Assembly: GCA_001972305.1 (NCBI GenBank)
Contig: BDDD01002909.1
Location: forward strand, 32,927-96,926
DNA: 64,000 nucleotides
Direction of reading: 5' to 3'
DNA from: Cephalotus follicularis
Taxonomy: Eukaryota > Streptophyta > Magnoliopsida > Oxalidales > Cephalotaceae
Shown here: positions 6,599 through 49,955 of the stretch, in pieces
Position numbering within the stretch: the stretch's first letter is position 1
How the letters are laid out: every line of letters begins with the position of its first letter
Notes under the pieces: model-generated
Told to the model about the DNA's origin: nothing
Seen by the model: only the letters and a program-made list of their open reading frames with translations
Databases searched by the model: none
Made by a program: the position numbers and the translations under genes

Positions 6599-6755
6599 AA
6601 CGTCGACGCCGTTGGAAAGCGTCGACGCTTACGCAGCAAAGATGCGCACGTAACCCATACACATGCAAGTCTACGCCTGTTGATGACGTCGATGCTCTTT
6701 AGGTAAAACGCTATAAGCGTCGACGCCTGCATGCAAACATCGACGCTTTGTGTCG
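6599..6755. repeat. GTCGAC palindrome field 1 in B 5' LTR
   Basis: Units such as CGTCGACGCC, GCGTCGACGC, CGTCGATGC and CATCGACGC recur with irregular spacers of 10-40 bases. Confidence 0.8.
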
Positions 6756-7530
6756 TGTTCCTGATAAGCACCGACAGCAAATAGACGTGTCACATGGAGG
6801 CCATTTCATGCCACTCTTCAGGCACCTTCACATGCATTTTATGACGTGTTGAGATGGCATTGAGATTCCCTGAAGTACCAACAACAAAATAGGCAGATAG
6901 GAGTGGGGTTCTGAGCATGCATTAACTGGAAGAAGGAAGAAATGGACACTTGTTCCACCAGGTTGCACAAGGGAGAGAGGAGAAGAAATCGTGAATGCAT
7001 GCAGAGAAAACAAAATAACAACTGCATAAAGTCAACTCCTCTCATCCCTCCCGTCTGTTACTGAAAGAGAAGACCAAAAGAGTTAAGAGAGACACAAAGA
7101 GGGAAATGAAGTAGAAAAGATAGAGAGAGAGAGAAGCTCAAACTCTATTGTTGAGCAAGGGAGAGCTTGAAGGCTGGACAACAACTGCTAGAGCGAACCA
7201 GGGAGCATCCAAACCAGACCTGGGAGCTCGAAGTGACTGGACTAAATACTAAAAGAAGTGGACTTTCGGCTTCTAACTTGAAGCCAGAGGTAGGGGAAGC
7301 CATAATTGTATTTTGTGTTCAATATTTGGTGTTTGATTATTGATGTATATGCATGGATTGCATGACTTTTGATCTGTTTGTAATCACTGAATTGATGCCA
7401 TGTTTTATTGGATGTGTAATCTACTATTGCATGTCGGTTTCCTGGTTTTATTACATGTCTTTGTGCATGTATCTGGATTTAATTTGTACTGGGCTGAAAT
7501 GTTGTGAGGAAGAAGACGACCTGTGCGCAA

Positions 7531-7735
7531 GACCGTCGACGCTCTGGTAAAAGAGTCGACGCTTTGGGCTGTGAGAGGCGATAGTTTTATTGAATGCCTG
7601 TTAAGACGTCAACGCCTATGGGAGAAGACATAGACGCCTAAGGTACAGAAACCGCTGATGCTAAGGATCGAGCGTCGGCGTTTAGAGGACTAAGCGTCGA
7701 CGCCCAAGGGAAAGACATCGACGCTTTAGAGGCTG
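7531..7735. repeat. GTCGAC palindrome field 2 in B 5' LTR
   Basis: About nine units (CCGTCGACGC, GAGTCGACGC, GCGTCGACGCC, GACATCGACGC and relatives) with unlike spacers. Confidence 0.8.
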
Positions 7736-9025
7736 TTTGGGCCAAATTCGCTTAAATGACGTAGTTCGATCTCGATTTCAGTTTAGATGCATTAGAACAT
7801 ATGTTTGCATTGCATATGTACTGTTTTTGACTGTTTATTGACTGCGTTTAGTTTCTAAAATTGTTTCAATATTTTAGAAATGCTTACGTGATTTCGAAAA
7901 TCATTATTTAAGTACGAAAATATATATTGGACAAATACATATTTTCAAACAAACTAGGGAGTGAATGCCATTACTGTTACTATTTAAAGTATTTTCTATG
8001 AGATGGAAATGCATGATTTCAAGTAATTTTAAGTGACTTGAAGTAAACTGATATATTTTTGATCAAGTAATTATTTTATAAAATTGCTTGAACCGTACTA
8101 TTACTGTGACTATTTTCGGTGTTTGCACTGTGACTATGCTGTGTTTGGGTTGTGCTTGTGTTTGCGTCATACTAGTTGCATGGCGGAGATTGCCAACGAT
8201 GACTAGTTGCAGGGTTGACCTAGGAACTAGGAGTTGGTTGGGTAACTCACTGTACTGTACTGTGGCCTACTTCATGTCGTCCAGAGGCGGGGCCGAAGTT
8301 AGGAGTGAGACGTGGGGTCAGGAGTTGGCGACGTTGTTCGTACTGACTGACTGCTTGTTAGTCCCTTTGTGGACATATTGTATACTGTTTACTGGTCCTC
8401 ACGGACACTACTATTACTGTTGACGTAGCCCTGGAGGGGTTACTACTGTACTGTTGAAACATATATATTTTCAATTTTATATATATATATATATATACAT
8501 ACATACTGTTACCTTACTATACTGCATCATCTATGCATACATTACATGACATGCATTTCATGTTGATCTCAAATAGCTCTTATGCTTAGCCGAGTGAGGA
8601 TAAAGGCTAACCCCCTACTTTATAAATTGATGCAGTGGACCGGCTTTGGGAACCAGCATGGATGAAGAACAAGTTTTAATAATGTTTTTACTTGGGGTTA
8701 TGTCCTTTCAGGTTTTGTTAAGCTGGTTATGTATTTAATGGGTGTTGTGTACTGTACTTCCGGTTTACTTGTTTTATGATGTTGATGGATAATGTATTTT
8801 GATCATGCTCCGTTTTGTGGGCTTTTAACTATGACAGACATGTATTTGGTAACGTGTAGTATGGGATGCACGTTACGTGCTTTTCAGCTTATGGGTTTTA
8901 ATGCTTCCGCAACCGATATCATGTTTGAAAAGTTTAAATTTTTATGGTATTTTGCATCAGCTGAATCTTATATGTTAATTGCCTTCACCATATCTCCTGT
9001 TTATGGAAATCGGGGTGTGACAGCA

Positions 9026-9037
9026 TGGTATCAGAGC
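9026..9037 (+). other. Primer binding site of element B (initiator tRNA-Met)
   Basis: TGGTATCAGAGC lies three bases after the 5' LTR and is complementary to the 3' end of plant initiator tRNA-Met, the usual primer of Tekay-type elements. Confidence 0.93.
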
Positions 9038-13748: not shown

Positions 13749-13782
13749 TACTGTTAAAATTTCAAGGACGAAATTCCTTGAA

Positions 13783-13793: not shown

Positions 13794-13970
13794 TGTAACG
13801 CCTGGGGTTTTCACACATTGTAATAATTTAATTTCTGATGTAACCTTATCACGAAATTAATGAAAATAATGAAATTCCTGACTTTGATGGTGTTTTCTCT
13901 TTTAATGGTTGAAATTTGAAAAAGGAACATCAAAGGAGTTCTTTGATTTAAGTATTGAAATTTCGGGCAA

Positions 13971-15100
13971 AAGCGTCGACGCCTTTGGAAAGCGTCGACG
14001 TCTACGCAACAAATATTCGCACGTAACCCATGCACATGCACGTCAACGCCTGTTGATGACGTCGATGCCCTTTGGGTAAAATGCTATAAGTGTCGATGCC
14101 TACATGTAAACATCGAAGCTTTGTGTCGTGTTCCTGATACGCACCGACAGCAAATAGACGTGTTGCATGGAGGCCTTTTCATGCCATTCTTTAGGCACCT
14201 TCACATGCATTTTATGACGTGTTGAGCATGCATTGAGATTCCCTGAAGTACCAGCAACAAAAGAGGCAGATAGGAGTGGGGTTCTGAGCATGCATGAACT
14301 GGGAGAAGGAAGAAATGGACACCTGTTCCACCAAGTTGCACAAGGGAGAGAGGAGAAGAAATCGTGAGTGCATACAAAGAAAACAAAATAACAACTGCAT
14401 AAAGTCCACTCCTCTCATCCCTCTCGTCTGTTACTAAAAGAGAAGACCAAAAGAGTTGAGAGAGGCACAGAGAGGGAAAGGAAGTAGAAAAGATAGAGAG
14501 AGAGAAGCTCAAACTCCATTGTTGAGCAAGGGAGAGCTTGAAGCCTGGACAACAACTGCTAGAGTGAACCTGGGAGCATCCAGACCGGACTTGGGAGCTC
14601 GAAGTGACTGGACTAAGTACAAAAAGAAATGGACTTTCGGCTTCTAACTTAAAGCCAGAGGTAGGGGAAGCCATAATTGTATTTTGTGTTCAATATTTGG
14701 TGTTTGATCAGTGATGTATATGCATGGATTGCATGACTTTTGAACTGTTTTTAATAACTGAATTGATGCCATGTTTTACTGGATGTGTAATCTATTATTG
14801 CATGTCGGTTTCCTAGTTTTATTACATGTCTTTGTGCACGTATCTGGATTGAATTTATTCTGGGTTAAAATTTCATGAGGAAGAAGATGACCTGTGCGCA
14901 AGACCGTCGACGCTCTGGTAAAAGAGTCGACGCTTTGGGCTGTGAGACGCGATAGTTTTACTGAATGCGTGTTAAGACGTCGACGCCTATGGGAGAAGAC
15001 ATCGACGCCTAAGGTACAGAAAGTGCTGACACTATAGATCGAGCGTCAACGCTTAAAGGACATAAGCGTCAACACCTAAAAGAAAGACATCGACGCTTTA
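13971..15100. repeat. GTCGAC palindrome fields in B 3' LTR
   Basis: Two fields, about 13971-14120 and 14901-15100, match those of the 5' LTR. Some units have decayed, for example GTCGACGC to GTCAACGC and GTCGATGCC. Confidence 0.75.
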
Positions 15101-15359
15101 AAGGCTATTTGGGACAAATTCACTTAAATGACGTAGTTCGATCTCGATTTGAATTTAGATGCATTAGAACATATGTTTGCATTGCATATGTACTGTTTTG
15201 ACTGTTTATTGACTACGTTTAGTTTCTAAATTTTTTTCAATTTTTTAGAAATGCTTACGTGATTTCGAAAATCATTATTTAAGTACGAAAATATATATTG
15301 AACAAATACATATTTTCGAACAAACTGGGGAGTGAATCCCACACTACAAAAAAATAGGT

Positions 15360-15785
15360 CTTTTAAAATGGATGGAATCCGTTTCAAAAGGCCTATTTTT
15401 CCATTTCAAAAGCTCAATTGAAACGGTTTTGAAACGGGAAAATGGAATTTCAAAAAAGTGGCGTATCAATAGCCTTTTGAAACGGACAAATCGTTTCAAA
15501 ATGGTACCCTTTTGAAACGGTTGGGATCAGCCGTTTCAAAAGGGTATTCTAAATTTTTTTTTTTTTTTTTAAAAAAACCTTTTGAAACGGTGAGACAAGT
15601 CGTTTCAAAAGGGTACCCTTTTGAAACGGTTTGGACCTAACCGTTTCAAAAGGGTATCCAAAAAAAAAATTATAATACCCTTTTGAAACGGTTTGAGCCT
15701 AACAGTTTCAAAAGGGTATCCAAAAAAAAATAGAATACCCTTTTGAAACGGTTTGGGTCTAACCGTTTCAAAAGGGTATTTTTTT
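15360..15785. repeat. CACTA left subterminal repeats
   Basis: At least a dozen copies of TTTTGAAACGG or its complement CCGTTTCAAAA, arranged as inverted pairs. They are probably transposase binding sites, as in other CACTA elements. Confidence 0.88.
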
Positions 15786-16069
15786 TAAAAAAAAATAATT
15801 TAAAAATAATTTAAATCTTTTATAATCTGATTTTTTTGACGTAAAATAAAGGTCGAACCCACGACAACAATGCATCAACTAAATTAGAAGCGCTACATTT
15901 CGAATTAAATACAATTTATATATATTATTGTACAATATTATAACCAATAAACTATTTTGCTTAAACGTAAATAAACACCGTGAACATAAAATTATCAAAA
16001 ATCAAAATACGATACAATTAATTTATCGTCTGCATATAATGTAGTCAATATAATTACAACTTCCTAAAC
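15786..16069. other. CACTA interior, AT-rich filler
   Basis: Nothing recognisable between the left subterminal repeats and the captured exons. Confidence 0.5.
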
Positions 16070-17616: not shown

Positions 17617-18913
17617 CTGTATAAATTGGAAAGAAATTAGGTGGCACACTAAGGGTTCAGGTGACATTTCTCCGCAGTCAATGCACGGCTGCATTTACTA
17701 TTCTCTCGAAAAATTACACAATACACTGCTGTATATACTATTCTCTTGAACAATTACATAAGAGGGAAAAAGCCTCCAAATATTGAGTATAACTTCTAAT
17801 ATAGTTTATAAATTTGAGAAAGTGGGCGTATAAGAAATTTCCATAAAAGTAAGCTAATAACGAAGGTTGTGGACCAGGTGATGAATGATTATAAGACCAG
17901 AACAGCTGTCCCAATGGATTTTTTTTTAAAGACACTGTCTCATTATCATATATATTGAAAGGATACGTCCATAGGAAGTCAAGTTAAAAGAGAGAGAAGG
18001 CTTTTTCCTTCTATCCCTTAAAAACCAAAAACCAATTCCAAGCTCTAAAACTTAAATATGCCTCCCAATCAACATCAAGAATAGAAAGATTCCGAACGCA
18101 TATGATTAATGCTGAAAGGTACACAGCTTTAAAATAAATTCACACTACTTAACAATTCAAATAAACCAACATGAAGGAAAACTTCTAAAGTAGCAACTTT
18201 ACAATACCCCTAGGCCATATGATCCATATGTCAAAATTGTCGCACATGTGGCCACAATTTCTTGTTTTGGAAGCCCACATTGGCAAGCAGCTTTCTTTGC
18301 CAAGCAGTATGTTTGGCATTGCAATCACTTTATACAAGAAATTGACTGAATACATCATCTACAATCTTACAGGTTTAATGTAGAATCTCAACTTGGAAGC
18401 ACCATTAAATTTCTTCAAAGCTTTGCACCAAAGCATTATCATCAACAAAATTGTGTAAACTCTTCAACTCAATGAATGATAAATGTTTTTGTACAAGAAG
18501 GATCACAACAACTAAATCAATAAGTGGAATAGATATGTATACATATACACTATATAACATTCTAGACTAATGAACATTTTCTCCTTCGTCAAATCAAAAT
18601 TATAGCCAAAACCTGTGTCCAATATAATCCGACAATCATGAATAACTGACAGCCCTAAGAGAAATTATAAGCCAGTTAAAAATAATTGACTGCCACAAGA
18701 GAAGCTAACCTCAGATCCAAACCCTAACAGATCAAAAATAAAAAAATCTAGCCACTAACAGATCTAAATTTTAAAAAAAAAAAAGCTAAACAGAAAACCC
18801 TAAACAGAAATCAATAAAAACAATAACACATAAATAAGAAATCTAAATCCTAAACTAGAAATAAATAAAAAAATCCGAAATGCAAAAAAATCCGAAATTA
18901 AAAAAAACATACC

Positions 18914-18948
<35 letters not shown>

Positions 18949-23580: not shown

Positions 23581-24003
23581 TGATTAGCATAAAAATGTAT
23601 TCTTTTTAATGAGTTATTTATTATATTTTTATGGTTGGAACATATTACTTTGGTGGTATTTGATTGACTTTCAAGTAAGAATCCAAAAGATCAAAATGTA
23701 GAAACATGAGTCAAATTGGCGCAAATTGAGAGAAAATGGACCAAAGATTGAAGAATTGGCAAAATTCTACAAAAAACAGAGCAGGGCGTCAACGCCTAAA
23801 CTTTAAGCGTTGACGCCTACCTCTGAAGCGCTGATGTGACGACCCAAATTCCCTTTTGTACTGTTTATGCATACATTGTACCGTATTGTACTGTATCAAA
23901 TTGTATTGAATTGAGATATTCTTATACCTATTGTTATTGTATTGGTTATATGCATGTATAATCGGGATTTTGGGCTAAGTATCGGAGAGTTGGTCGAATT
24001 GAC

Positions 24004-24010
24004 TATATAA
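24004..24010 (+). promoter_or_regulatory. Element C TATA box (5' LTR)
   Basis: TATATAA, conserved at 30711-30717 in the 3' LTR. A CT-rich leader follows. Confidence 0.7.
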
Positions 24011-24532
24011 GTCAATTTCTCACTCTCATTCTCTCATTCTTTGATTCTTCTCCCTTTCTCTATCCTTCTCCCTCTCTCTCTCTTGCTGGCAGCCTCCCTC
24101 CATCTCCATAGCAACTCCTGATTGCATCTCCTTCAACAAGGATACCGATTGCAAGTGTGGTTTGCCGATTGAGTGACAGAGCAGCTGATTCTTGGGTGAT
24201 TTCAGCCGATTGATCGATCAATAGCTCAACTTTTGAAGCTTTATTGAAGGTAGTACTTCCCTACTGGATTGCCTATTGCTTAATTGCATAATTGATTGAA
24301 TGATTGATTGAATTGAGTGATTGTATAGCATTGAATTGAAAAACTAGGGTTTTATATATTTCCTTGATCTTACTGATCTAGGAGGATTGAAACTAAATTT
24401 TGAAGGTTGTAACAAGTTTTACTAATCCCAAATGATTGATTTTAAACCTTGGTTTTCAAAGAATGGCTTTAAATTGTATTTTGGTATGAGATTGGCTGGT
24501 TTTTCTGCAATAAACTCAACCCTGCCCAACAA

Positions 24533-24903
24533 AGACATCGACCCCTAGCCCATGGACGTCGATGTCTTTCGCTTCAGAGTGTTGTATTTGTGATTCCGTA
24601 GCAAAGACATCGACGTCTTTGAAAGATATTGACGTCTTTACCGCGAGACGTCTTTCCCCAGAAAAGATATCGATGCCGAACATCGATGCGCATTCCTAGG
24701 CTATTTTTATTGAAACGCTTCGACGTCTTTCTCAAAGGACATCGACATCTTTCTGCCAGATCTCTACACAAAAAGAGAAAGACATCGATGTCTTTCAAAG
24801 ACATCGACGTCTTTCAAAGACATCGACGTCTTTCAAGGACATCGACGTCTTTCCCCCATTTTACATATGTGTCAACTTCTTTCACCAAGGACATCGACGC
24901 CTA
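24533..24903. repeat. ATCGACGTC palindrome field in C 5' LTR
   Basis: About sixteen units of AGACATCGACGTCTTT and variants (ACATCGATGTCTTT, ACGTCGATGTCTTT, CATCGACGCC). Four units at 24780-24852 are almost contiguous; the rest have irregular spacers. Confidence 0.88.
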
Positions 24904-26149
24904 ATGGACTGAAAGGAGTTTTTAACTACTTTAAAGCTAGTTTTCAACTTCTTTTCACAAAGCCACTTGACTGGAGCCTCACTTGAGGTGTTCAAGTGTT
25001 TGAAAATGGTTTTAATGATTGTACTGACCGATTGATTGCTTGAGTCATGAGTGATGTGAGTCTAAGTCGGTAAGTTGGACGCACATTCCCAACCCTCCAT
25101 TAGATACCGTCACTCATTGACTTTGCTTATTGACATTGTAATGATATTGTACTGACATGATTGATTATATTGTATGGATCCTATAGAGCGACCTTATGAT
25201 TCGTGTCGGCATGTTAGGTTGTTGACTCTGTCCACCTATTTCGTCGATCGTTTCATTCACTGTATTGTATTGACTCGCTGACAAGCGGTACCGATTGATT
25301 GTCGATTGATGCTCCCTTGAGGCCGTAGCTTCCTAACGGTATCAGTAGCTCCATGAATTGTAGCTCATCGAGACTGTATTGACCCAGCCATAGGCTGGAA
25401 GATCTATGAGTCCTAGACCTGATCAATCTGAGAACCGTAAATAGATCTCCCACCCTTTTTGAAGGACTACCTTCCGTGGGATTGATCACTGCTAACTGAT
25501 TGACATCGTATTGACCCGGGGTCGCATGCTCTATAGGATATTGATTGATTGATTGGTTGGGTCTTTTATATACCACCATTGAGTGTCTGCCATTGATTGA
25601 TTGTTATAGATCCTATCCATATGCTCTGTTATGGGCCATTGTCATACGGGTAGTCTGATCGCCAACTGTACATATGCATTTGTCATGTCATGCATTGATA
25701 TTGTACACTGCACATTATTATTGCATAGATTGTCACCGATATTGCACATTGTACATGCATACATGCTGCATGAGGTTTCTGCTTAGCCAGTGTGGCTAAC
25801 CCCATCCTTCGGGGTGGGGCTGTATTGTACTTTTGTTTGCGGCATAGGTAGGGCAGCAGGTAGCAGCGGACAGAACGACTGAAGACTCGTTTTGATTGCA
25901 CGACTGCTTGGGTATCACGGAGCTGGTTGTGAGATATTGTAGTGAAACATTAAAATGTATTGTATTGTAAAGGATTTGTGTTGTATTGTATTGTATGGAT
26001 GGATTGATATTGTATCTTCCGCTTCATGATATGTACTGCGAAGTTTTAAGTTTTTCCGTATTTTTATATTGTTAGTCCCGACCATTGTATTGTTATTGGA
26101 TTGAGAGTAATGCCACGTGTCCACCCTGCAGGCGCGGGGTGTTACAGAA

Positions 26150-31226: not shown

Positions 31227-31595
31227 CAAAGACATCGACCCCTAGCCCATGGACGTCGATGTCTTTCACTTTAGAGTGTTGTATCTGTGATTCCGCAGCA
31301 AAGACATCGACGTCTTTGTAAGACATCGACATCTTTGCCTCGAGATGTCTTTCCCCAGAAAAGACATCGATGCCGAACATCGACGCGCATTCCCAGGCTA
31401 TTTTTATTAAAACGCGTCGACGTCTTTCTTCACGGGCATCGCCATCTTTCGGCCAGATCTCTACACAAATAGAGAAAGACATCGATGTCTTTTAAAGACA
31501 TCGATGTCTTTTAAAGACATCGACGTCTTTTAAAGACATCGACGTCTTTCCCCCATTTTACAGATGCGTCGACGTCTTTCACCAAGGACATCAAC
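31227..31595. repeat. ATCGACGTC palindrome field in C 3' LTR
   Basis: Same layout as the 5' copy, with four near-contiguous units at about 31475-31550. Substitutions differ from unit to unit between the two LTRs. Confidence 0.88.
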
Positions 31596-32462
31596 GCCTA
31601 ATGGACTGAAAGGAGTTTTTAACTACTTTAAAGCTGGTTTTCAACTTCTTTTCACATTGCCACTAGACTGGAGCCTCACTTGAAGTGTTCAAGTGTTTGA
31701 AAACGGTTTTTATAATTGTACTGACTGATTGATTGCTTGAGTCATGAGTGATGTGAGTCTAAGTCGGTAAGTTGGACGCACATTCCCAACCCACCATTAG
31801 ATACCATCACTCATTGACTTTGCTTATTGACATTGTAATGATTTTGTATTGACATGATTGATTGTATTGTATGGATCTTATAGAGCGACCTTATGATTCG
31901 TGTCGGCATGTTAGGTTGTTGACTCTGTCCACCTATTTCGTCGATCGTTTCATTCACTGTATTGTATTGACCCGCTGATGAGCGGTACCGATTGATTGTC
32001 GATTGATGCTCCCTTGAGGCCGTAGCTCCCTAACGGTATCAGTAGCTCCCTCGGTTGTAGCTCATCGCGACTGTATTGACCCAGCCATAGGCTGGAAGAT
32101 CTATGAGTCCCAGACCTGATCAATCTGAGAACCATAGATAGATCTCCCACCCTTTTTGAAGGACTACCTTCCGTGGGATTGATCACTGCTAACTGATTGA
32201 CATCGTATTGACCTGAGGTCACATGCTCTATAGGATATTGATTGATTGATTGGGTGTTTTATACACCACCATTGAGTGTCTGCCATTGATTGATTGTTAT
32301 AGATCCTATCCGTATGCTCTGTTATGGGTCATTGTTGTTGAGTCACAATCATGGGGAGATTGTTGAGTCTCAATAATATGTTTTAATGATTACAAATTTG
32401 CATTTAACTTTGTTGCTTGATGTGCAAGATATTACAAAGTTCCACAAAAGGAAAAACCAATA

Positions 32463-32900
32463 TGCAAGGAAAAGACATTGACCTTCCAGAAATAACATCG
32501 ACGTCCGTACAGAAGACATCGACGCCTTTCAAGAAGACATCGACGTCTTTAGTGTCAGAAGCTACTGATCAAACTTTAAATGAAGACATCGATCCTTTCT
32601 CACAAAGACATCGACGTCCGTACAAAAGACATCGATCCCTTTCCTAAGACATCGACGTCTTTCAAGACCAATCTGCCAAAACTAGAAAAGACATCGACCC
32701 ATGAAGAAGAAGTCGACGTGATGTTCAAAGATTCAACTGCCTGGACATTTCCCAGAAATGACATCGACGCCTTTAAAAAGACATCGATGTCTTTTTAAAT
32801 GGATTGACCCGGGAATTCAGGAACGGCTACTTGGCGCACTTACAACGGGTAGTAACAGTCAAAGACATCGACGCCTTTATAAAGACATCGACGTCTTTCT
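32463..32900. repeat. ATCGACGTC palindrome field in E 5' LTR
   Basis: About fourteen units: AGACATCGACGTCTTT, AGACATCGACGCCTTT, ACATCGACGTCCGTAC (twice), AGACATCGATCCTTTC and others, with mixed spacers. The same word dominates gypsy element C. Confidence 0.88.
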
Positions 32901-32988
32901 GTCAGCAGAGACAAAAACAGGCTGCATCAACATATTTTTATATCCAAAATGCCCAAGACTTTTGCAACGGCTAGAATCAAGATAAAGC

Positions 32989-32996
32989 TATAAATA
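32989..32996 (+). promoter_or_regulatory. Element E TATA box (5' LTR)
   Basis: TATAAATA, also at 36166-36173 in the 3' LTR. The motif field lies upstream, unlike in element C. Confidence 0.75.
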
Positions 32997-33180
32997 CAAG
33001 CCAATGATGAAGATTCAAGTGACTTGAAACAAGAGAGAAGAAATTTGCTCTAACTCTTATCTCTTTACTTACAATTGCATTATTTGTTCTTGTGTGGATT
33101 GTTTAGTTTCATAATTTAATTTGTTATTTCCGCTAACAAATTTTGCTGTTTAAGGTTGCCATACATACATTACTTTCAGT

Positions 33181-35646: not shown

Positions 35647-36076
35647 GAAAAGACATTGACCTTCCAGAAATAACATCGACGTCCGTACAGAAGACATCAA
35701 CGCCTTTCAAGAAGACATCGACGTCTTTAGTGTCAGAAGCTACTGATCAAACTTTAAATGAAGACATCGATCCTTTCTCACAAAGACATCGACGTCCGTA
35801 CAAAAGACATCGATCCCTTTCCTAAGACATCGACGTCTTTCTAGACCAATCTGCCAAAACCAGAAAAGACATCGACCCATGAAGAAGAAGTCGACGTGAT
35901 GTTAAAGATTCAACTGCCTGGACATTTCCCAGAAATGACATCGACGCCTTTAAAAAGACATCGACGTCTTTTTAAATGGATTGACCCGGGAATTCAGGAA
36001 CGGCTACTTGGTGCACTTACAACGGGTAGTAACAGTCAAAGACATCGACGCCTTTATAAAGACATCGACGTCTTTC
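35647..36076. repeat. ATCGACGTC palindrome field in E 3' LTR
   Basis: Same set of about fourteen units as the 5' LTR with few substitutions. Confidence 0.88.
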
Positions 36077-37055: not shown

Positions 37056-37858
37056 GTTGCTAGTGGTAGCTAGTGGAATCTCAAGGGGTTCTTGAGAAAG
37101 TGGACGTAGGCACAGATTTACCGAGCCATTATAAATTCGTTTGCACTCTCTCTAAATCTTATCTCTTTACTTACAATTGCATTATTTGTTCTTGTGTGGA
37201 TTGTTTAGTTTCATAATTTAATTTGTTATTTCCGCTAACAAATTTTGCTGTTTAAGGTTGCCATACATACATTACTTTCAATTGTCATACGGGTAGTCTG
37301 ATCGCCAACTGTACATATGCATTTGCCATGTCATGCTTTGATATTGTACACCGCACATTGTTATTTCATAGATTATCACCGATATTTCACATTGTACATG
37401 CATACATGCTGCATGAGGTTTCTGCTTAGCCAGTATGGCTAACCCCATCCTTCGGGGTAGGGTTGTGTTGTACTTTTGTGTGAGGCCTAGGTAGGGCAGC
37501 AGGTAGCAGCGAACAGAACAACTGAAGACTGGTTTTGATCGCACGACTGCTTGGTTTCACGGAGCTGGTTGTGAGATATTGTAGTGAAAGATTGAAATGT
37601 ATTGTATTGCAAAAGATTGGCATTGTAAAGGATTTGTGTTGTATTGTACTGTATGGATGGATTGATATTGTATCTTCCGCTTCATGATATGAATTGCAAA
37701 GTTTTAAGTTTTTCCGCATTTTTATATTGCTAGTCTCGACCATTGTATTGTTATTGGATTGAGAGTAATGCCACGTGTCCACCCTGCGGGCGCGGGGTGT
37801 TACAGCTGACGGGTTCAAGGAAAGCGTCAACGTTTTGCTCTTCACTGGAACAAAATTT

Positions 37859-39323: not shown

Positions 39324-41441
39324 TGTGACGCCCCGAATTTCATAAATAATTATTATGAAATTGGTGCGTGTACAGTTGCGATAAAATCGATAGAGCCGGA
39401 GTAATAAAAAGGCATTACGCATTTAAGACGTAATTGTGTTGGCCAAGACGGCTAATAAAATCTATTTTTAATGCTCGACAATAAAGCCCGAATGCTCGCA
39501 ATATTATTGCGCTTATTTTGGTGGTCGTTTGGATAATTTATGTCGCGATTTGCGGAAAAATCGGGACCCGTACCTTAGTATTTTACCAGAAAATACTAAA
39601 GAGAAAGCAAATAACAAACAATAAAGGAATGAAGAAGGGGAGACACGGGCGCATAGCGCGCCCGTGCGTTTTGGATCTGCAGATTAGAGGGAGAGAGAGA
39701 CAGGGAGAGAGTGCAAGAGAGATTGGGAGAGAGAACGGCAGAGAGATCGGGAGAGGACACCGGAGGCAGCTACCGGACCGGGAGAGCACGCTGGTCAACC
39801 CAGGGCCTCCAACCGACGGTAACCTCCTCCCCGTTCTTCTCTTTTTCTTCTTTTTCTTCCCTGCTACCGTCACTGTCGCGCCTCTTTCCCGGCGTTTCCC
39901 GACGCCGTTAGCGTCGCGGGTGGCCTGGGTTTTGTTGTAGATGGCTAGCTCTTGCTATCTTGACCACCGGTGAGGCGTGATTCGGCCGGAAACGGCCGGA
40001 ATCAGTTGAATGAGTTGACTCAGCGAGTCGACTCACTGTTGCCTGAGACACGGCGTTTGGCGTCGAGTCTTGGCGAGTCACGGGCAGTGATGTGTAGGAC
40101 GGGTGAATATGTGGCGTTTTTGGGTGGTGATCAGACCTGTGGAGGTCCGGCGAGTTGACTCAGTGAGTCACAACTCACTGCCGGTCGTGGCGCGGCGTTC
40201 GGTGCCGATTCCCGGCGAGTTATGACCGGTTCTGTGTTCACCGTTCAATGTGGAACCCGTTGATGTATGTTTCGTCGCCTGGTTGTGTCGGTCAGAACCC
40301 GGCCGGCGTTTCGGCGACGGAAATGTTTTGTGTGTCGAACATAACGGAAATGTGTTGTATGTGCAATGTGTAAGCGGCAATTGGATTTGGCATCGAGGAA
40401 TTGATCAATTGGCGAGAACCGGCTTCGGTTCCACGGTTATCGGAAAGGTTCGGCAATTGAACCTGCGGCCCGACTGTGCTGCTGTAACAGGTAGGGGAAG
40501 CTATACATGCAAGTTTGAGTTCAATAATATTGTGTTGAATTGATGAAATGCATGGTTTGCGGATTGTGAATTGTGTGACTGTGTTAGGGTTGCTATGAAT
40601 AGTTAACCTGTCTTGTATATTGTGTTTTGTGATGATTGCGAACTGAATGACATATGTTGTATGCTTGAACTCTTTTGGTTTTGAGGCGTGTTGAGGGAAC
40701 CGTGTTTTGGGTTCGCTTAACCGTCGACGCTTAGGAAAGAAGCGTCGACGCTATGGATTGTTATACGGACAATGAGTCATGATTCGCGATAAACGTCGAC
40801 GCCACGATTCATCGTGTGTGAGAACGGATACGTGTGCCGTTGACGCCTGAGGTTCCTACCTCAGAGCATCGACGCCAAAGGGATGAGATGTTGGCGCGTA
40901 AAGTTTCTGGTTGGAAGCATTGACGCTAAGAGTTAAGCGGCGACGCTTAAGTGATTGGGTTGAACATTAACGCCTATATGGTACATGTTGACGCAAATAG
41001 AGCCGTTTGCATTATTGAGCATATGTTTGCATTGCATACAATTGTTGATTGAGCTATCACCTGTTTTCTAAAATGTTCTTCATTTTAGAAGTGTATAAAT
41101 GGTTTATCAAATCATTGTTATATGGAAATGTATGTTTTCCAAAAGGATTGTGAAAGTGGTTTTAAGGGATTGAGAAACTGTTATACGAAAATGAGTATTT
41201 TCGTGTCGGATCACACTCCGTGTACTGTTGTACTTCCTTATGTACAAGGATGTTACTTGGATTGTACCTGCACGTAGTATGGGATGCGTGCGGATGATTT
41301 ATGTATTATAATCCAGTTTTAACTGCTTCCGCTTATGTATTTGAATTGTTAATGAGAATGCTGGATTATTATTATTATGCTTATTCCTGATATCACCATA
41401 TATGCTTGTCTAATGTAAGTTGGGAAAAACGGGGTGTGACA
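39324..41441 (+). repeat. Solo gypsy LTR G
   Basis: TGTGACGCCCCG to CGGGGTGTGACA, 2118 bp, with a perfect duplication and no internal region, so it arose by recombination between two LTRs. Central sequence (about 39990-40220) is related to F2. Homopolymer-rich coding-like frames here have no domain. Confidence 0.92.
39995..40995. repeat. Two palindrome fields in solo LTR G
   Basis: One field at 39995-40200 has GAGTCGACTC, GAGTTGACTC and GTGAGTCACAACTCAC-type units. The other, about 40715-40995, has GCGTCGACGC, CGTCGACGCC, GCATCGACGCC and GCATTGACGC. Confidence 0.8.
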
Positions 41442-41446
41442 ACAGT

Positions 41447-42516
41447 GTTCCCACTTAGAACAAGCCCAAGCGATTACTACTTTGAGCAGTGGGCGGGTAA
41501 TTAGAGAACCGCAAGTAACTGCTCCAAGTCCTAAGCTAATTCATGATAGGAGTCCTGAGGATAGAGTGTCCTCAAAGAGTGGTGAGAAAGAGACCCTTCG
41601 CAAATCTAACTCGGAAGACACAAAAGCCTCCACATCTAAAGAAAGTGAACACAAGGGGAAGGAAAAGGACATTACTCTTGTTTCACCTAAAGCACATTTT
41701 CCTGAGTGTTGGCGATCTCCGTCTTTGGTTCCTCCATTTGTTAAAAAGGTGGGAAGGATGGAAGAGATGATGGAACTATTTAAACAGGTCTAGATCAACC
41801 TTCCTCTCCTAGATGCGATACAGCAAGTGCCAGCCTATGCCAACTTCCTAAAGGACTTATGCACCACAAAGCGTAAGCTGAAAACGCACATTCCAAAAAT
41901 GGTCCATCTAACAGAGCAGGTGAGTGCAGTGCTTTCTAACAAGCTGCCACATAAACTAAAAGACCCCGGAGCTCCTCTGATATCTTACAAAATTGGAAAT
42001 TTACAAATAGAGAGAGCACTCCTGGATTTAGAGGCCAAAGTTAACATCCTCCCTAACTCAGTTTATAACCATTTTGGGTTTGGAGAATTGAAACCCACTG
42101 AGGTGACACTTCAACTTGCTGATAGATCTCTGAAAATTCCTAAGGGATTCATTGAGGATGTGTTAGTGAAAGTGGACGAGCTTTATTTTCTAGTGGATTT
42201 CCTTGTGCTCAATACGGAAACTCCTTCGAATGGGAAGCCGCAATCGATTATCTTAGGTCGTCCTTTTTTAGCCACAACAAATGCTTACATAAACTGTCAA
42301 TCTAGAGCCATGGACATATCCTTTGGTAATAAGAAGTTGAGACTAAACATCTTCAATGCAGCCCTAGGACCTCAAGTTGAGAAGGTTTGTTTTGCTATAG
42401 ATATGATAGATGAGGTGGTATCCGAGTGTGCAACTGAGACACTTGATTTTGATAGAGACTTCATTGAGTGTATGAGAGAATTCGAGGAAATGGAATCTAC
42501 CCAAAGGAAATGTTAA
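41447..42516 (+). pseudogene. Element D gag end and Athila-type protease
   Basis: Continues the D frame after G. A TAG near 41790 interrupts a conserved run that resumes with INLPLLDAIQQVPAYANFLK. The protease segment from about 41985 is strongly Athila-like: ALLDLEAKVNILPNSVYNHF, TEVTLQLADRSLKIPKG, and IILGRPFLATTNAYINCQS. The Gly after the usual Asp-Leu is Glu, so the active site is probably dead. It ends at 42516; no reverse transcriptase follows. Confidence 0.88.
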
Positions 42517-43701
42517 CATGGCTGGAAAATGAGGAAGCGTTAACGTGGCTAGAAAATAAGATCAATGAGCCAACTTCGGATAGTGAATGGGATCATTTAT
42601 CCCATTACACTCACAAAATGGCCGGAATTAGTTACCAAGTCGACTCAGCGAGTTCGACTCGCTATCGTTTGTGACACGGCGTTTGGCACCAAGTCACAGC
42701 AAGTCTCGGGTAGAGATGTGTAGAACGGGTCTTGTGGAGGTCAGTTTGTGAAGTGACCGGAGTTTTTGATGACCGGCGAGTCAACTCAGTGAGTTTGACT
42801 CACTGTCGACCGTGACAGCGTATTATGTGGCGAGTCACGGCAAGTCTCTGGCTGTAATGTGTAGATTATCTAAATTGGAGCCTGTTTATGGCGTGGTCGG
42901 AGCTCCGATGTGTTGGTCGGAATCTGGTCGGAGCTCCAGTGACGACAGTATGTTGCTTTCGGTGTGTAGGTCATAACGAAAGTGTGATATTCATGCAATG
43001 TAAAGGGGCTAGCCCGTGATAGTTATTGCAGCAGTACTAAGAGAGTCGTTGGCACAAGAAGAGCTCTGTTCTCATGACGGCTAGTGGAGCTGAAGGAAGA
43101 ACCAAATTTGGTTCAGCAACAAATGGAAATGAACGGCAGTAGAATATGTAAGTTCAATAATTGAGGTTGGCTATACTATCTACTTGCATTCATGCATTTG
43201 AATGGACTGTATGGACTATTATTGTTATGGATTGATAAGTGTATGGATGGATTGGGTATTGGATATGTGTATAATGGGCTGAATGGGGAATTGAGAGGAG
43301 TTGATCTTCTGCTTTCTCTTAATTCAAGGGTTGTGAAAATGGATTTTAACGGTTTTTGAAATAGGTTTTGAGCTTGACAGATGTTTAAAGCTTACGGATT
43401 TCTAAATCAGACTTTTTATCCAATTCAAATGAGTTTCTGTACTGATTTTCAGTGTTGAGGGAACTACAGGGCATCAACGTGTTCATCCTATGTGTTGACG
43501 TGTTCCTCAGTGCCCAGCACGTCGATGCTTAGCTTATGCGTCGACCCATTAATGTTTTCTTGCGCCTTGTGCATTAATGGAGTGTAGCACGTTGACGTGC
43601 AGCACGTTAGTGCAGTACTTAAGTATCGACGCCTTATCCTTTTAAAACTGCACATATTGACGCCTAGTACACAGCATCAACACATAGACATTAAGTTTCG
43701 A

Positions 43702-46633
43702 TGTAACACCCCCGAACGGTGGGAGCCCTTAGAGGTCATAATACATAACTAAACATAACAGAATATCTAAACAAAACTCGACTTTATTCATTTTATCTAA
43801 ATATAAACTTAACTTTTTTCAAAACGTGGTGGTCTAAGACATTATCCAAAAACATATCATAATCTGAAAACATAAGCCGAAAACTTTAATCCGAAAACAT
43901 AAACCAAAATCATAATCTGAAGTCATAATCTGAAAAGCATAACATTGTTCAAATGACAGGCCCTAACATGACCATGAGACAACAAAAACATAAACGGACC
44001 AAACACCTAGGTGATCCTTCGACATTAGTGGATAACACTCATCACACATTTTCCCCACGATGCTCCTAAAACCTGCCACATGGAAAACAAAATGCAGCTG
44101 AGCAAACCTTAGTACGGATAAAGAACATAAAACATAAAACGATAATTTAAAAGATAGCAAATACCTGAACTTTTAGATATCGAGTAACTCATACAAAACG
44201 AGACAAAAATACTTTCACAAAAAGAAAGACAGAATACTTGTCTAAAACAGTTATAAAACACCAAGATTTCTCAAATTTCATAATCTTTTCAAATATCATA
44301 AAATCATAGCTTTATCCGATTCCATAGTTCCATAACAGAGATCCGATGTTCATATACATATAAATAAATGCAAGGGGTTTGCAAGGCCCACATGCTCCGA
44401 TGGAATAACGTGTATGGCACTACACAATTAATCCCTAAAATCCAAATCCTTAACAAATCCTAGGGTCGACCCATACGCCTCTATCAAAAGGGGGATCCAA
44501 ATCCTATTCACAGGATATCATAACATAGAGAGACGTTGTAGTCTAATCACACCACTACGGAAGTGTCATGTCCCCGTGCCAGGCCTACGACATGCCTATG
44601 GTACCTCCATAGGTAGGAAATATTTCTGTGTGTCATTATTCCAAAAATATTGTTTTATTCCCAAAACAATTTAAGAACATAAGCAGATTTTCTAAACTTT
44701 TTCTGAACATATCATAATCATTAATATACTTCCTAATGTGAAAGTCATGTTCAATATCAAAATCAGTATACTTTCATAAGTGAGAGTCATACTCAATTTA
44801 TAAAACCGGTAATATTAAACTACAGTAATAAAACATATTTTATAAAAAGAATCGAAACAAACATCTGATAACAAAATCCGTACATTTTCATAAAATAAAA
44901 AGCTGTCAAATACAAAAAATCCGTAACAAAAACGATATTCACATAAATCAAGAATAGCCAAAAGAGAAAACATTCGTACAATGGCAAAACTGAAATTTAT
45001 GAAAACCCAAAACAGAAGATGATAATCCAAGACGAAATAAAATCCAATAGGGTATCAAAGAGCAGAATATCCGTACATAATCATTAAATAGTAAAATTGA
45101 CTTTATTCGAATAAAATCGAAGGGAGTATCCAAGAACAAAAGAATTTGTATATCTCATTAAAACAAAATAGATTCAATTCAGATAAAACCGAATGATAAC
45201 CAAAATGAAGAATCCGTATTTTATTCGCAAAATAAAACTGAATTTATACTCTAATAAAATCGATAAGAGTGTATCAAGAAACGAATATTCGTGCCTTAAG
45301 CGATCACATAAATGACTTATGAACTGACCGACAATTTTCTAACTGCCCCTCGGTAGCACAAAATCTATACAATATAATGTCATTCACATAAGGATCTGAG
45401 AATAAATTAAGGACATCAAAACAGAAGTATAACTGTGTTTAAAACAGACCCCGATTCAACAGAAGAACAAACGGAAAATGAAACTTGAAAACATGAATTT
45501 CCTGGACTAACCAGCCGACTGTAGCAGGACTCCAGTTGACTGTTGAAACCTGGCAGTCGACTGCACCACATGGCCAGCCGACTACACAAGCAGGACTGCA
45601 GCCAGTCAACTGGGACAGGGGTCCAATTGACTATGCAAGGCATAGCAGTTGATTGATTGAAGAGGCAGCCGACTACTCAAAGCACAACAGCCGACTGTTC
45701 TGGGTGACATAACAGAAAATCTAACAATCCTATGCCAATTTTCCGTCAAAATCCGAATACCACATTACCAGAAGACCAAAACTATAATAAAAGGACATAA
45801 GTGACACACCAATTGCATAACAACATAAGGAGATAAGAAAATTATGCAAATGGTGATCATACTTTAAAGAGAAGTATGGAATTCTAACTTCTACACATAT
45901 AATCCGATTTTATTAAGGCATTACGACAAGGTCATCATACCAGATTAAACAACTCATATTAGATGACCTAAAGCTGCTATCAGGAATTACAAAACAAAGG
46001 AACGTAAACCAGCAAGATGACCACATTCATATTCAAAGATGGTTCCTAACCAAATACACATAAAACATGGATTGATAACAAAGCAAAATCAAAAGGACAA
46101 ACCTGATTGGGATGACAAAGCTATAAGAATAACGCAAGGAGTCTAGAATTTAAACCAGCCGTGATTTCTCCAAACAAAAGGGTAAGAAATATCATAAAAC
46201 AATGGCAACAACATACATAAATAGAATGGAGAAGAGAAAAACGCGTGAGAGATAAGGAAAGAGGGAACAAAATCTGATAGGATAAGGAAAATAGAGAGAT
46301 TTACGGCATTGAGGGAGAGAATCGGAGAGAGAGAATCGGATTTGGGAGAAAGAGAGAGGGAAAAACGGGATAGGGAGAGAGAAAAAGAAAACAATTTAAG
46401 GAATTTGTTTTAAATAATTATTTTATGATAAAAACCTTTTATAAAATAATTAAAATACACTAAAAATCAATTTTGCTTATTCATATACATTTTCTAACAA
46501 TTACCCAAAAGGTCCAAAGCTGGTATCAGTCAGCCCAAACCACGAAGACCAAAAAAAAAAAAAAAGAACAGACTACTTAACAAAACAGATTAAAAGCCTC
46601 AAAAAAATACACACGAATAAACGGGGTATTACA
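43702..46633 (-). repeat. Solo gypsy LTR I (reverse strand)
   Basis: TGTAACACCCCCG to GGGGTATTACA, 2932 bp. Flanks TTCGA (43697-43701) and GTCGA (46634-46638) match at four of five bases. On the reverse strand it starts TGTAATACCCCG and ends GGGGGTGTTACA, the normal polarity. No internal genes. Confidence 0.88.
45508..45708. repeat. AGTCGACTG palindrome field in solo LTR I
   Basis: About ten units: CAGTCGACTG, CAGCCGACTG, CAGTTGACTG, CAGTCAACTG, CAGTTGATTG, with irregular spacers. Confidence 0.85.
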
Positions 46634-48849
46634 GTCGACGCCTCACACCATAGCATCGACGCCTAATGCCTTGTTTAGCCAAACTTAATTGTTTCTCATT
46701 GTTTTCATTCCCAAAATGGTTTTCTCTCTAAGTGGATTCCATAGGAAGCCTCCCTAAGGCCTTGTAACCTATGAAAATCCTCTTTTGACACATTTAATCT
46801 CCAAATCAATTTTCAAATAGATCTTTAAAAAGAAGTTTAATATAAGGGTTTTCAACATTCAAATGGATCTCGAAATGGTTTTCAATAAATGGTTAGGATA
46901 GCTCGATTGGGACATCTGGACACGGATATCCTAGTTGAACTTCCTCTCCATCGTTTTATAACTCCGATAGGGACAACCAAATGGTTTATAATTATGGAAA
47001 AAATGGTATACGGTTATGAAAAAATGGATTTTAAAATGGTTTTGACAGAGTGGATCCTATGTGATCCTTTATAATAGGTCCGTATCCTTTAAATGGAATA
47101 TGGTTATGAGTTATGGATGTTATTGTTTGAGACCTACGAGATAACCCATCCATAATCTTCGTTTCCGTCACGAGGATTATGGGTTTTAAATTACATCACT
47201 GAAGGGTATGGACATTTCCTTAGGGATGGTCCAGTGGTGCCTATGGGTTAGGACTGTTTGTTACAACTTAGCATTATGCTATGGGTTAGGACCGTTTTTA
47301 CGGCCTAACATTATATTATGGGTTATGACCGTTTTTACGACCTAACATTATGATTATGGGCTATGAGCGTTTTTACGGCCTAGTATGGATGTGATCAGCG
47401 TTATCTCTCCCCTACTCGACTACTACCTTAAAAGATAGGTAATCGGTGGTAGTACTATCTCGGGCCGGAGGAGCAGAGTAGTACTAAGACCCACGGATTG
47501 ATTGTCCCCATGGATGGTTATGGATTGTTTTATGAAGTGTATGTAGGTTTATAGCCTTTGATGTGATTAGAACTAGCCAAGTATACCCCGCTTAGGGAAG
47601 CTGTGCGCAATTGGCATTCATGCATATAACATGCCATGCATATATATATGGTTATACTGTTGCATTACATTGCATGCTTGTCACACCCCACTTCATTAAC
47701 AACATATAAGTCATGGCAATTAACATAAATCCAGCTTATACAAAATACAATAAAATTTAAAAATTTGATTCCAATAAAATCTTGTGGAAGCATTTAATAA
47801 TAAGCTGGATAAGTAAGCAAAATCACGCGTCCCATACCACATGATTCCAACATTTAATAACATTAAGCCATTGTCAATTGCCCTCAAACGGATTGTGATC
47901 AAAAGTCGATCAACATCATTAATACATTAGTATAGTAACCCAAAACAACATATATTACAATACATTGTTTAACATTTATTTAAGTAAATGAACTCAATCC
48001 CCCCCTCTGATTCGGCCACGCACGGTCGAAATCCACATCCCTGCATCAATCTATAATAGTAGGGAGTTAGCCTTTGTCCTCACTCGGCTAAATTATAAGT
48101 GTAATTTAGGGTCAATGATAATGAATGTCATGAAATGAATGCATTCGTGATGCAGTACATAATATATCACAGTACACACACACACACACACACACACACA
48201 TGTGTGTGTGTATGTATGTATCTATGCCAATAGGTGCAACCATGCCAAGTGGCTACAACCATCAAATCACCAATCATGTCTCAAAGTACCAATCAATCCA
48301 ATCAATCGTACGAAGAGCGCCGCCATCTCCTGGCCCTGACGTCGTACTCTCACTCTGGCCCCCGACTTCCGGGTCACGGAGCAAGGCAAATCAATCAACT
48401 CATGATGCTCACACTCTGTGTTCAGCACTCATGGTAACCCGTGTTACTTGCACTCAGTGTTTAGTAATATTGTATTTGGGCATCCCTAGCCATCTTCTGG
48501 CACCTAGGAGAACATCCCGCCACCAGCCATCGGCGACACTCCGTCACCTTGGCCAGTACGCATCAATCACAATCAATCAATCAATTCAAATCAAATCATT
48601 TCCAAGTAATTTATAAATACTGAAAATAATACATTTATTTTAAAATGTATTCCATCTTTGAAACCATGTTTCAATCCGTCGAAAACATACATTTATCAAA
48701 ATACACATTTTCGTATCAAATAATGATTTGTATAAAATCATGTACACATTTCTAAAATGAATAAAACACTTTAGAATCATTCATATTCCAATCATCAATT
48801 CATTTCATATCAAAATGCAATGCAAACATATGTTCAAAGTGCAAATCAG

Positions 48850-49275
48850 TCCTCAACCAGTCGGCTGTCTCCCCTTGATAATCGGCTGTTTTCCTTCAAC
48901 AGTTGGCTGTCCCATATTTGGCAGTCGGCTGCCTGCCTTAACAGTCGGTTGTCTCTTTTTGACAGTCGGCTACTTCATGAACAGTACACGTCTTCTACAT
49001 CGCTATCCACTCCAGCCTTGCCACCTCAGCGAGTCTGAGTGAGGCGACACGTGGATAGTCGACTGTCATCCCAAATAGTCGGCTGTGCCATCTACAGTCG
49101 GCTATCCTCCCTCGACAGTCGACTAGACCACCAGCAGGAGGTGACCTCCATTAAAACGCATGAACAGTCGATTGGCTCCTTAGCACAGCCGGCTGTTTCC
49201 CTCGAGTAGTCAGCTGTTCGCACTGAACAGTCAGCTGGCACCCTCGAACAGTCGGCTGTCCTCCTGGGATAGTCG
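48850..49275. repeat. AGTCGGCTG / AGTCGACTG field 1 in solo LTR J
   Basis: About sixteen units of CAGTCGGCTG, CAGTCGACTG, CAGTCAGCTG and CAGCCGGCTG, with spacers of 5-60 bases. Confidence 0.87.
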
Positions 49276-49825
49276 GCTGCTCTTACGAGCAGTGCACAAA
49301 AACAGTAGAAAATACATGCAATTCTCAACCCAATCCATTCAAAACAGAGCATTCATCAACAGCAAAACACATTCATGCTCATATCTTAGTCTATTGCATG
49401 CATTTCATCTATGAACGTCCATTATAACTGAACATAAACCACGATTATAAAATCCCCTACCTTTGAATTCCAAGTTAGGAATTGCAATCCACCTCTTTAA
49501 GTCCCGGATCTGAGGCGTTCAAAGCTCCCAGGTCAGTCCAGCAGCTCCAACAAGCTTGGTTCTTCCACTGGTTCGAGCCTCCAAGCCCCCAGTTCAAGTA
49601 TGGAGCATTTGGGTCTAACCTCTCTCTCTCTTTTCCTCTCTTTCTTCATCACAGTCTCTTTATTTCTTTTCTCTATTTTCTCTGTGAAATGCCGAATAAT
49701 GGAGGAGAAGAAAAAGTGTTTTTATGGAGAAAACGTGTTTCTCTTTCTCCCTGCCGACACAGACCCCAAAATCACTCTCCCTCTATCTTGCCAGGTCTGG
49801 CAGCACGTTATGTTGTCTGACCGCA

Positions 49826-49955
49826 TGGCAGTTGACTGTCTCATCTTGGCAGTCGACTGTCTCTGCCGACAATTTCCAGTCGACTGTTTTTCCCAGCAGT
49901 CAGCTGGATCCACTTAAGGGAGTCCAGTCGACTATCTCTCTCTGACAGTCGGCTG
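49826..49955. repeat. AGTCGACTG field 2 in solo LTR J
   Basis: Seven units, including three CAGTCGACTGT or CCAGTCGACT copies, close to the LTR start on the reverse strand. Confidence 0.85.

Follow-up and report, generated by a model that had tools for sequence, protein, structure and literature searches.

Fields of TCGA-core palindromes in retrotransposon long terminal repeats of Cephalotus follicularis

Why should the long terminal repeats (LTRs) of retrotransposons from two superfamilies be filled with short near-palindromes built around much the same core? The question is raised by a stretch of 64,000 nucleotides from Cephalotus follicularis (assembly GCA_001972305.1, contig BDDD01002909.1; G000:C2909:32927-96926), referred to here as the window, which is a nest of plant LTR retrotransposons. 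A sequence-only reading had noted fields of TCGA-core palindromes in many of these LTRs, and had offered a host factor binding DNA, a selected chromatin or replication property, or a spreading micro-motif as their cause. The explanation that we favour, with some rather than strong confidence, is that a dimeric host protein binds DNA at these units, each field being an array of its sites, and that the arrays serve the retrotransposons as enhancer or promoter modules. The evidence comprises one genome, a random sample of 200 kb and one mosaic LTR; lineage names are taken from end motifs and domains, not from a reverse transcriptase tree. The elements are lettered B to J as assigned in this analysis, and these letters may differ from those of the earlier reading.

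Density, spacing and conservation of the palindromes

A unit was defined as any 12-mer with no more than two mismatches from AGCGTCGACGCT, GACATCGATGTC, GACGTCGACGTC or ACAGTCGACTGT, and unit counts were set against 60 dinucleotide shuffles. The 5' LTRs of B, C and E contained 9, 9 and 11 units, where the shuffles gave means of 0.18, 0.25 and 0.08; the corresponding values were 6 and 0.13 in G, 4 and 0.13 in I, and 15 and 0.28 in J, and all six counts lay above every shuffle. Eight control regions held two units in total. H had one unit against a mean of 0.15, which was not above every one of its 60 shuffles, and its field therefore rests on degenerate units; the evidence for H and F consists of few or degenerate units. 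The hexamer GTCGAC was found 31 times in the window against 6.85 expected (100 shuffles, maximum 14). Among the 16 palindromic 4-bp cores, TCGA was the most prominent in LTRs (29 against 2.6) and was flat outside them (6 against 6.5), while TATA (20 against 3.6), ATAT (16 against 4.6) and TGCA (10 against 2.8) were also raised in LTRs. The earlier claim that TCGA-core palindromes are denser than in shuffled sequence is thereby borne out, and it holds genome-wide. That every field has a TCGA core is mostly correct, the departure being J, where TCGG/CCGA is commonest (10 of 20 units, against 6 of 20 for TCGA); in G, the full units are raised but plain TCGA is not (10 against 9.4).

Genome-wide counts refer to the assembly of 1,577,397,061 bases, with the identical word reversed as the control for each exact palindrome. 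This showed 73,186 copies of GCGTCGACGC against 121 (605-fold), 197,377 of CAGTCGACTG against 939 (210-fold) and 12,263 of AGACATCGATGTCT against 15 (818-fold). The random sample comprised twenty 10-kb stretches from contigs C1-C2899 (the first 20 of 180 drawn by a seeded script, all 20 being used), which provide an unbiased view and of which 7,379 of 200,000 bases were N. GTCGAC was the most over-represented of the 64 palindromic hexamers there, with 128 occurrences against 18.2 under a first-order Markov model and 84.8 under the highest-order model, which already knows its 5-mers. The sample held 217 units, compared with 16 in the reversed sequence, and 32 fields of at least three units were distributed across 14 of the 20 stretches. 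By extrapolation from about one unit per kb, the assembly would contain over a million units. In viral_contigs, scans with three palindrome patterns also returned 4, 1 and 89 stretches, and one of these patterns gave 26 more in genome_contigs; the idea of plant copies in these prokaryote and virus collections was set aside and the stretches were left unused, the genome_contigs matches being titled bacteria or archaea.

The spacing of the units had been called irregular, and this description fails. In the window, 37 of 64 adjacent distances were 19-22 bp, compared with a mean of 7.8 and a maximum of 20 under random placement (3000 trials), followed by modes at about 42 and 51 bp; 11 of the 23 distances within 26-69 bp fell at 48-53 bp (binomial p = 8e-5). 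Similarly, 71 of 132 distances of up to 70 bp in the random sample were 19-22 bp, as were 50 of 94 when one field was kept per similarity cluster (28 clusters from 43 fields). The 47 distances of 24-80 bp in this deduplicated sample were phased at 10.2-10.6 bp (p ~0.004 against a null of uniform distances, or 0.007 when 10.0-10.8 bp was scanned), and with the 23 distances of the window included, 0 of 5000 nulls reached the observed phasing. When 6-mers recurring at 19-22 bp were sought in the sample without unit models, CAGTCG, AGTCGA, CGTCGA, GTCGAC and CATCGA led. Genome-wide, CAGTCGACTG pairs at 21 bp numbered 25,896 (reversed control 89) and those at 25 bp only 47 (control 0), an excess of roughly 550-fold. 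Fifty listed pairs of the 25,896 had 36 distinct spacers, which fell by single linkage into 15 classes at up to two mismatches, 11 at three and 3 at four.

The units resemble one another far more than the DNA between them. Pairwise identity between units ranged over 0.75-0.83 for B, C, E, G and J and was 0.77 for the five called units of I, while flank identity was 0.26-0.49 against a background of 0.25-0.27, being highest in C and E, whose motif is longer. Together with the varied spacers at 21 bp, this upholds the earlier argument that plain slippage does not account for the fields. After insertion the units received no protection and decayed like the remainder of the LTR, and their conservation therefore belongs to active lineages and predates insertion. 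Counted per CpG site, CpG transitions were rarer within the units (13/158) than over the rest of the LTR (31/198; Fisher p = 0.036), which is a hint that is not relied on here. Unit palindromy was not above that of arm-shuffled partners in B, C, E or J, and was slightly above it in G (4.57 against 4.38 pairs of 6) and I (4.80 against 4.50); hence, the arms are not individually matched, and the units follow a shared, slightly asymmetric word.

LTR kinship and a probable exchange of modules

The LTRs of B, G, H and J are homologous, and appear to belong to Del-like (Del/Tekay) chromoviruses; the position of the field is common to B, G and J. The LTR comparison found no homology between C or I and the other carriers outside the arrays, while F is Athila-like and E is a Sirevirus. 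The sequence-only reading was right that Ty3/gypsy and Ty1/copia LTRs carry the same palindromes, given fields in B and C, with Ty3/gypsy domains, and in E; its 'many unrelated families' applies to C, E, F and I, but not to B, G, H and J among themselves. Descent of every field from one ancestral LTR, which it had named as a refutation, is partly realized: in LTRs of the B, G and J type the field positions seem to be inherited, but no such line can be drawn to C, E, F and I, and the type of palindrome changes without regard to how closely the LTRs are related.

This last point emerged from the B and J lineage. The LTRs of B and J align at both ends and in between, and their fields occupy the same two slots, one after the first ~115 bp and another bounded by the GGTAGGGG anchor and the conserved block that follows it. 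The same slots are filled with different palindromes: GCGTCGACGC in B and CAGTCGGCTG/CAGTCGACTG in J. Sample LTRs of this lineage carry CAGTCGACTG or CAGTCGGCTG (L125, L134) or GACRTCGACGYC-like units (L131, L139, L140). In a tree of the LTR tails (seven sequences, two being the LTRs of B), L134 grouped with L131 and L139 (identity 0.91 in both cases), and the CAGTCGACTG carriers were rejected as a monophyletic group (log-likelihood difference 85; approximately unbiased test p near 0, for which IQ-TREE warned of too few replicates). Compared by windows, L134 and L131 were 92-94% identical downstream of the second field, 26-57% across it and 36-56% across the first field, and were similar again in the first ~80 bp and at the GGTAGGGG anchor. 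The upstream module of L134 was instead closest to L144, which also carries CAGTCGACTG (81% over 181 bp, a stretch that includes the field). L134 therefore has the appearance of a mosaic LTR, in which a regulatory module was exchanged just upstream of a tail that is 91% identical to its relatives; template switching may have been the route.

The converse is seen in C and E, which belong to different superfamilies and share the 18-bp palindrome AAAGACATCGAYGTCTTT. Their spacers did not align once the units were masked (p = 0.31), so that transfer of the field as a single cassette is unsupported, an old transfer being conceivable. For other pairs of masked fields the values were 0.06 (second field of B with G), 0.045 (second field of B with C) and 0.35-0.98 (five more pairs). 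Judged from these alignments, palindrome type does not follow LTR kinship. Exchange of modules would leave close relatives with different palindromes and different elements with the same one. The proposal of a spreading micro-motif is correct insofar as something moves, in one case; what moves is an LTR module with its arrays, and a free micro-motif is unnecessary.

The features of the window are collected in Table 1. B contains gag, PR, RNaseH, INT and SH3_Tf2-1 (E = 3e-23) domains and a weak Chromo match (E = 8e-4, below the cut-off), whereas a search for chromodomains in C matched SH3_Tf2-1 alone. The U5 ends of B, C, G, I and J are GGGGTGTGACA or GGGGTGTTACA (I and J read inverted, and one change in the 3' copy of B), and show the type-A att signature of Del elements, with GGG at -8 to -10 and conserved positions -1, -2, -3 and -6. 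C was inserted in a degenerate F unit with the target-site duplication GCTGA (23834/37805). E has gag_2 and zinc-knuckle domains only. By its junction, polypurine tract and primer-binding site it is a Sirevirus of the Ty1/copia superfamily: AGGGGGAG plus AT precedes TG, as aaaaaGGGGGAGAT|TGTTGAG at the 35514 junction; extra AGGGGGAG copies lie at ~35240 and ~35390, near the 3' LTR; and the CA/ATTGG junction appears as TTTCA|GTTGG|TATCAGAGC, where the primer-binding site is exact and one of five intervening bases differs. The gag of E found its best match, among 120 of 759 listed, in a C. follicularis protein (86% identity, full length), as did that of B among seven matches (79% over 32%). For F, we presume an Athila-like identity from its junction type, with a weak Retrotrans_gag match in addition; the start of its LTR was not found. 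I is probably inverted, to judge from its ends and composition only.

Table 1. Carrier LTRs and palindrome fields by position in the window
Feature	Position	Strand	Remarks
B 5' LTR	6440..9022	+	Del-like chromovirus; ends TGTAAAGCCC..GGGGTGTGACA; self-BLAST pair with 3' LTR; 12 units
B field 1	6599..6747	+	5 units, AGCGTCGACGCT type
B field 2	7532..7725	+	7 units; distances 20, 53, 22, 44, 22, 21 bp
B 3' LTR	13794-15341 + 19513-20559	+	self-BLAST partner of B 5' LTR
B 3' LTR, copies of both fields	13972..15097	+	
F LTR-end units	23785..23834	+	GGCGTCAACGCC, AGCGTTGACGCC and a third, degenerate unit cut by C insertion
C 5' LTR	23835..26146	+	self-BLAST; Ty3/gypsy domains inside; candidate TATA box TATATAAG at 24004
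C field	24534..24901	+	13 units, AAAGACATCGATGTCTTT type
C 3' LTR	30532-32335 + 37281-37804	+	interrupted by nested E
C 3' LTR, field copy	31231..31598	+	
E 5' LTR	32336..33180	+	gag-only Sirevirus nested in C 3' LTR; target-site duplication ATTGT
E field	32494..32895	+	12 units; AAAGACATCGACGTCTTT in common with C
E 3' LTR, field copy	35672..36072	+	
Fourth F unit	37823..37834	+	AGCGTCAACGTT, before Athila-type junction GGCGCCGTTGCCGGGGA
G solo LTR	39324..41441	+	target-site duplication ACAGT both sides; Del-type ends
G field	40720..40947	+	7 units, GCGTCGACGC type
H			old G-like LTR split by I and J insertions (LTR homology); 4 units
H field	43518..43633	+	degenerate GCGTCGACGC-type units in old G-like LTR
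H field, part beyond I insertion	46634..46662	+	
I solo LTR	43702..46633	-	inside H unit; target-site duplication TTCGA/GTCGA, 4/5 matching
I field	45511..45698	-	CAGTCGACTG / CAGCCGACTG units; 5 called + 4 degenerate by eye (9)
J solo LTR	47679..50109	-	inverted; homologous to B; 20 units
J field in B field 2 slot	48857..49280	-	15 units, CAGTCGGCTG/CAGTCGACTG
J field in B field 1 slot	49828..49956	-	5 units

Several other features were observed beside the fields. The Del-like LTRs contain the word AGGTAGGGGA at 7289, 40490 and 49461 (minus strand), and C has GGTAGTACTTC at 24249; the word sits 190-290 bp before the second field (or before the single field that C and G have), and further downstream B and J also carry a CTAAC...GATGCAG block. 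The word and block resemble an intron donor, branch point and acceptor inside the LTR. In the internal stretch of F, two GTTAAC-core near-palindromes (42510-42519 and 42535-42547) lie ~27 bp apart, and are possibly further units of this kind outside an LTR. The E 3' LTR contains a 43-bp tandem repeat in 16 copies (36364-37053, 98% matches), which was probably gained after the insertion of E because the 5' LTR is without it. The B 3' LTR is interrupted at 15342-19512 by an insert with CACTACAAAAAAA...TTGTAGT ends and arrays of CCGTTTCAAAAGG-like repeats near both of them (15473-15779 and 19237-19458), which presumably is a CACTA-type DNA transposon. Beyond the nest, 52494-63948 holds a gypsy element rich in GC (mostly 50-62%), whose LTRs measure 650 bp; its minus strand carries gag and reverse transcriptase open reading frames (ORFs), and its plus strand matches Transposase_28 at 53925-54992; no palindrome field was found in it.

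Proposed binding-site arrays and alternative explanations

A conserved core, free spacers and a pitch of two helical turns make the fields resemble cooperative dimer sites, and a host factor that binds DNA, among the causes proposed earlier, probably fits these three features best. As in an enhancer array, the sites are helix-phased and conserved relative to their spacers; the 19-22 bp distances and the conservation are strong, and the phasing at longer distances is modest. Each near-palindrome would be the site of one dimer, bound by a single protein or by a family whose members favour different arms. Since 19-22 bp is about two helical turns, bound dimers would lie on one face of the helix, where they may cooperate. 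In active elements, selection would retain the sites and their spacing while spacers drift, and dead copies would decay; arrays would move between LTR lineages within exchangeable U3 or leader modules. The position of the fields relative to candidate TATA boxes permits an enhancer role. The 18-bp palindrome is upstream of the candidate TATA box TATAAATA in E (at 32989, ~100 bp beyond the last unit, with a second TATA-like word, TTTATAAA, between the final two units), and downstream of the candidate TATATAAG in C, where the field lies ~530-900 bp beyond it; placement on both sides fits position-tolerant enhancers. Readings of the core as a CBF/DREB (YCGAC), W-box or bZIP site found no support here.

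Several observations weigh against binding-site arrays. Beyond 22 bp the phasing is modest (R = 0.36): it hardly varies over 10.2-11.2 bp, peaks at 11.05, and fails to reach significance when the window is taken by itself (p ~0.07-0.09). Gaps of 28 bp, which are off phase, are also listed among CAGTCGACTG sites; copy number inflates the pair counts over the genome, and 25 bp was the only off-phase spacing counted. An ancestral ~20-bp tandem duplication could account for part of the 19-22 bp spacing, and C does possess a young 19-bp tandem array. The three arm classes may reflect several proteins, palindromy gives some RNA structure, and the mosaic is a single, assembly-dependent locus, L134, which also has a 2.1-kb head-to-tail repeat.

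One rival is a neutral history, in which slippage in LTRs expanded an ancient palindromic tandem repeat of ~20 bp, decay removed the likeness of its spacers and recombination spread it, with no protein involved. Tandem arrays with a 19-21 bp period do exist, and a module has moved between LTRs. Neutral decay would not, however, yield units that are 75-83% alike beside flanks approaching background, nor does it explain why core and spacing are common to three arm classes, or why pairs at 21 bp, with their varied spacers, outnumber those at 25 bp 550-fold; we regard this history as unlikely. Slightly less likely again is an element acting in RNA, whereby transcript hairpins would affect stability, packaging or small RNAs and be targeted by host silencing, as has been argued for maize Sireviruses (precedent cited in PMC10760457). 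The fields fold mildly better than shuffles (z = -3.49 in E, -2.62 in J and -1.76 in the second field of B), but loopless palindromes of 10-12 bp make poor single hairpins, a pitch of ~21 bp with free spacers is not a folding constraint, and the motif occurs on either side of candidate TATA boxes.

The fields might also be targets of an anti-silencing protein encoded by the transposons themselves, of the VANC kind. As with VANC targets, motifs here differ among related LTRs and recur in unrelated elements; yet the carriers come from two superfamilies, and no clear extra gene was seen among ORFs of at least 150 aa in B, C and E, where not every ORF was searched and no dedicated search was made, so this appears improbable. 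A preferred integration target that gathers insertions is very improbable indeed: among the six insertions whose target-site duplication can be seen, two struck units (C in an F unit, I in an H unit), and a weak palindrome preference is published (PMC6911290, accessible text), but the other four (B, E, G, J) lie outside units, and arrays inside LTRs and their pitch are left unexplained.

A broader reading is that much of the LTR-retrotransposon load of this genome, Ty3/gypsy as well as Ty1/copia, came to depend convergently on a single class of dimeric host DNA-binding protein, with more than a million TCGA-core sites by extrapolation, a rule of about two turns, traded modules, and arms that switch in whole arrays without losing position or pitch. 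We put this forward tentatively, as somewhat short of probable. If true, unrelated genomic parasites would have an enhancer currency in common, a single host protein may switch many of their families together, and the arrays would have scattered an enormous number of one binding site, able to titrate the protein or to wire nearby genes. If Ty3/gypsy chromoviruses of one host bear the same words at a strict pitch and trade them as modules, the signal to which an LTR responds could change in a single recombination step.

Comparison with known systems

Judged by titles and the beginnings of abstracts among the papers listed, a literature search with subscription papers mostly outside its coverage found no work on TCGA palindromes in Ty3/gypsy LTRs or on Cephalotus in this respect. 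The closest precedent is the RM boxes of Sireviruses (Bousios et al. 2010, PMC2829016), described in the accessible text as high-copy palindromic LTR boxes with family-specific arms and unlike flanks, CpG-rich and near the TATA box. That text concerns Ty1/copia only and calls RMs Sirevirus-specific with a CGG-CCG core (Tnd-1 excepted). Palindromic LTR boxes have hitherto counted as a Sirevirus trait, and two of the RMs listed there are centred on TCGA (Vitis CGGTCGACCG and Tnd-1 ACAATCGATTGT). The present fields are likewise family-specific palindromic boxes with unlike flanks, and E is itself a Sirevirus. E, C, B and J have palindromic dyads at the RM copy number of at least 8 per element, while G, H and I were called below 8. 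The fields differ in their cores, mostly TCGA or CCGA/TCGG in place of CGG-CCG, which Tnd-1 lacks too, and in not being confined to Sireviruses, since they also fill B, C (with Ty3/gypsy domains) and B-homologous LTRs. In E, unit centres at LTR positions 165-555 precede a candidate TATA at 654 (TATA-like word at 543); in C, they lie at 706-1062, downstream of a candidate TATA at 170. A 21-bp rule applies here, and none was seen in the accessible text of PMC2829016. As a separate observation, the sample includes a Sirevirus-like element (L132) with an LTR pair (1203-2517, 6937-8236), a two-unit cluster in the 5' LTR and a second cluster inside the element (4659), which recalls RM copies before ENV.

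In maize, Sirevirus LTR palindromes attract small RNAs (Bousios et al. 2016, via PMC10760457 and PMC5311732), and the accessible parts of these papers report that the top Copia palindrome motif is also top in Helitrons, while Ty3/RLG elements generally lack a structure peak (PMC10760457). Clusters of palindromes in the LTR cis-region, and recurrence of a palindrome outside its superfamily, are common to both systems as far as those parts go; here, chromovirus LTRs are prime carriers. Del LTRs (Cruz et al. 2014, PMC4029996) are described with plastic CpG islands, none being in eudicot Del, and the string 'palindrom' is absent from the text available. The present LTRs match them in Del-like ends and in a CpG-rich, fast-changing 5' region beside conserved 3' parts, and differ in being eudicot Del-like LTRs with palindrome fields, CpG-rich in B, C and G but not in J (150-bp window test).

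VANC targets, on the accessible text of PMC5735166 and PMC10398659, are short motifs located in noncoding tandem repeats; related VANDAL transposable elements differ in them, and those of VANC6 occur also in the unrelated AT9TSD1 (PMC5735166). The likeness lies in short noncoding motif arrays that are switched between relatives and shared with an unrelated element; VANDALs are nevertheless DNA transposons encoding their own binding protein, and VANC motifs are not palindromes. The heat-responsive elements of ONSEN (PMC3907296, accessible text) likewise place host transcription-factor sites in a retrotransposon LTR, in a single copia family whose LTR is without CG sites, whereas the units described here bear CG. 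Set beside the accessible account of RM boxes, what is new here is the carriage of palindrome fields by chromoviruses, their strict spacing and the probable exchange of modules between LTRs.

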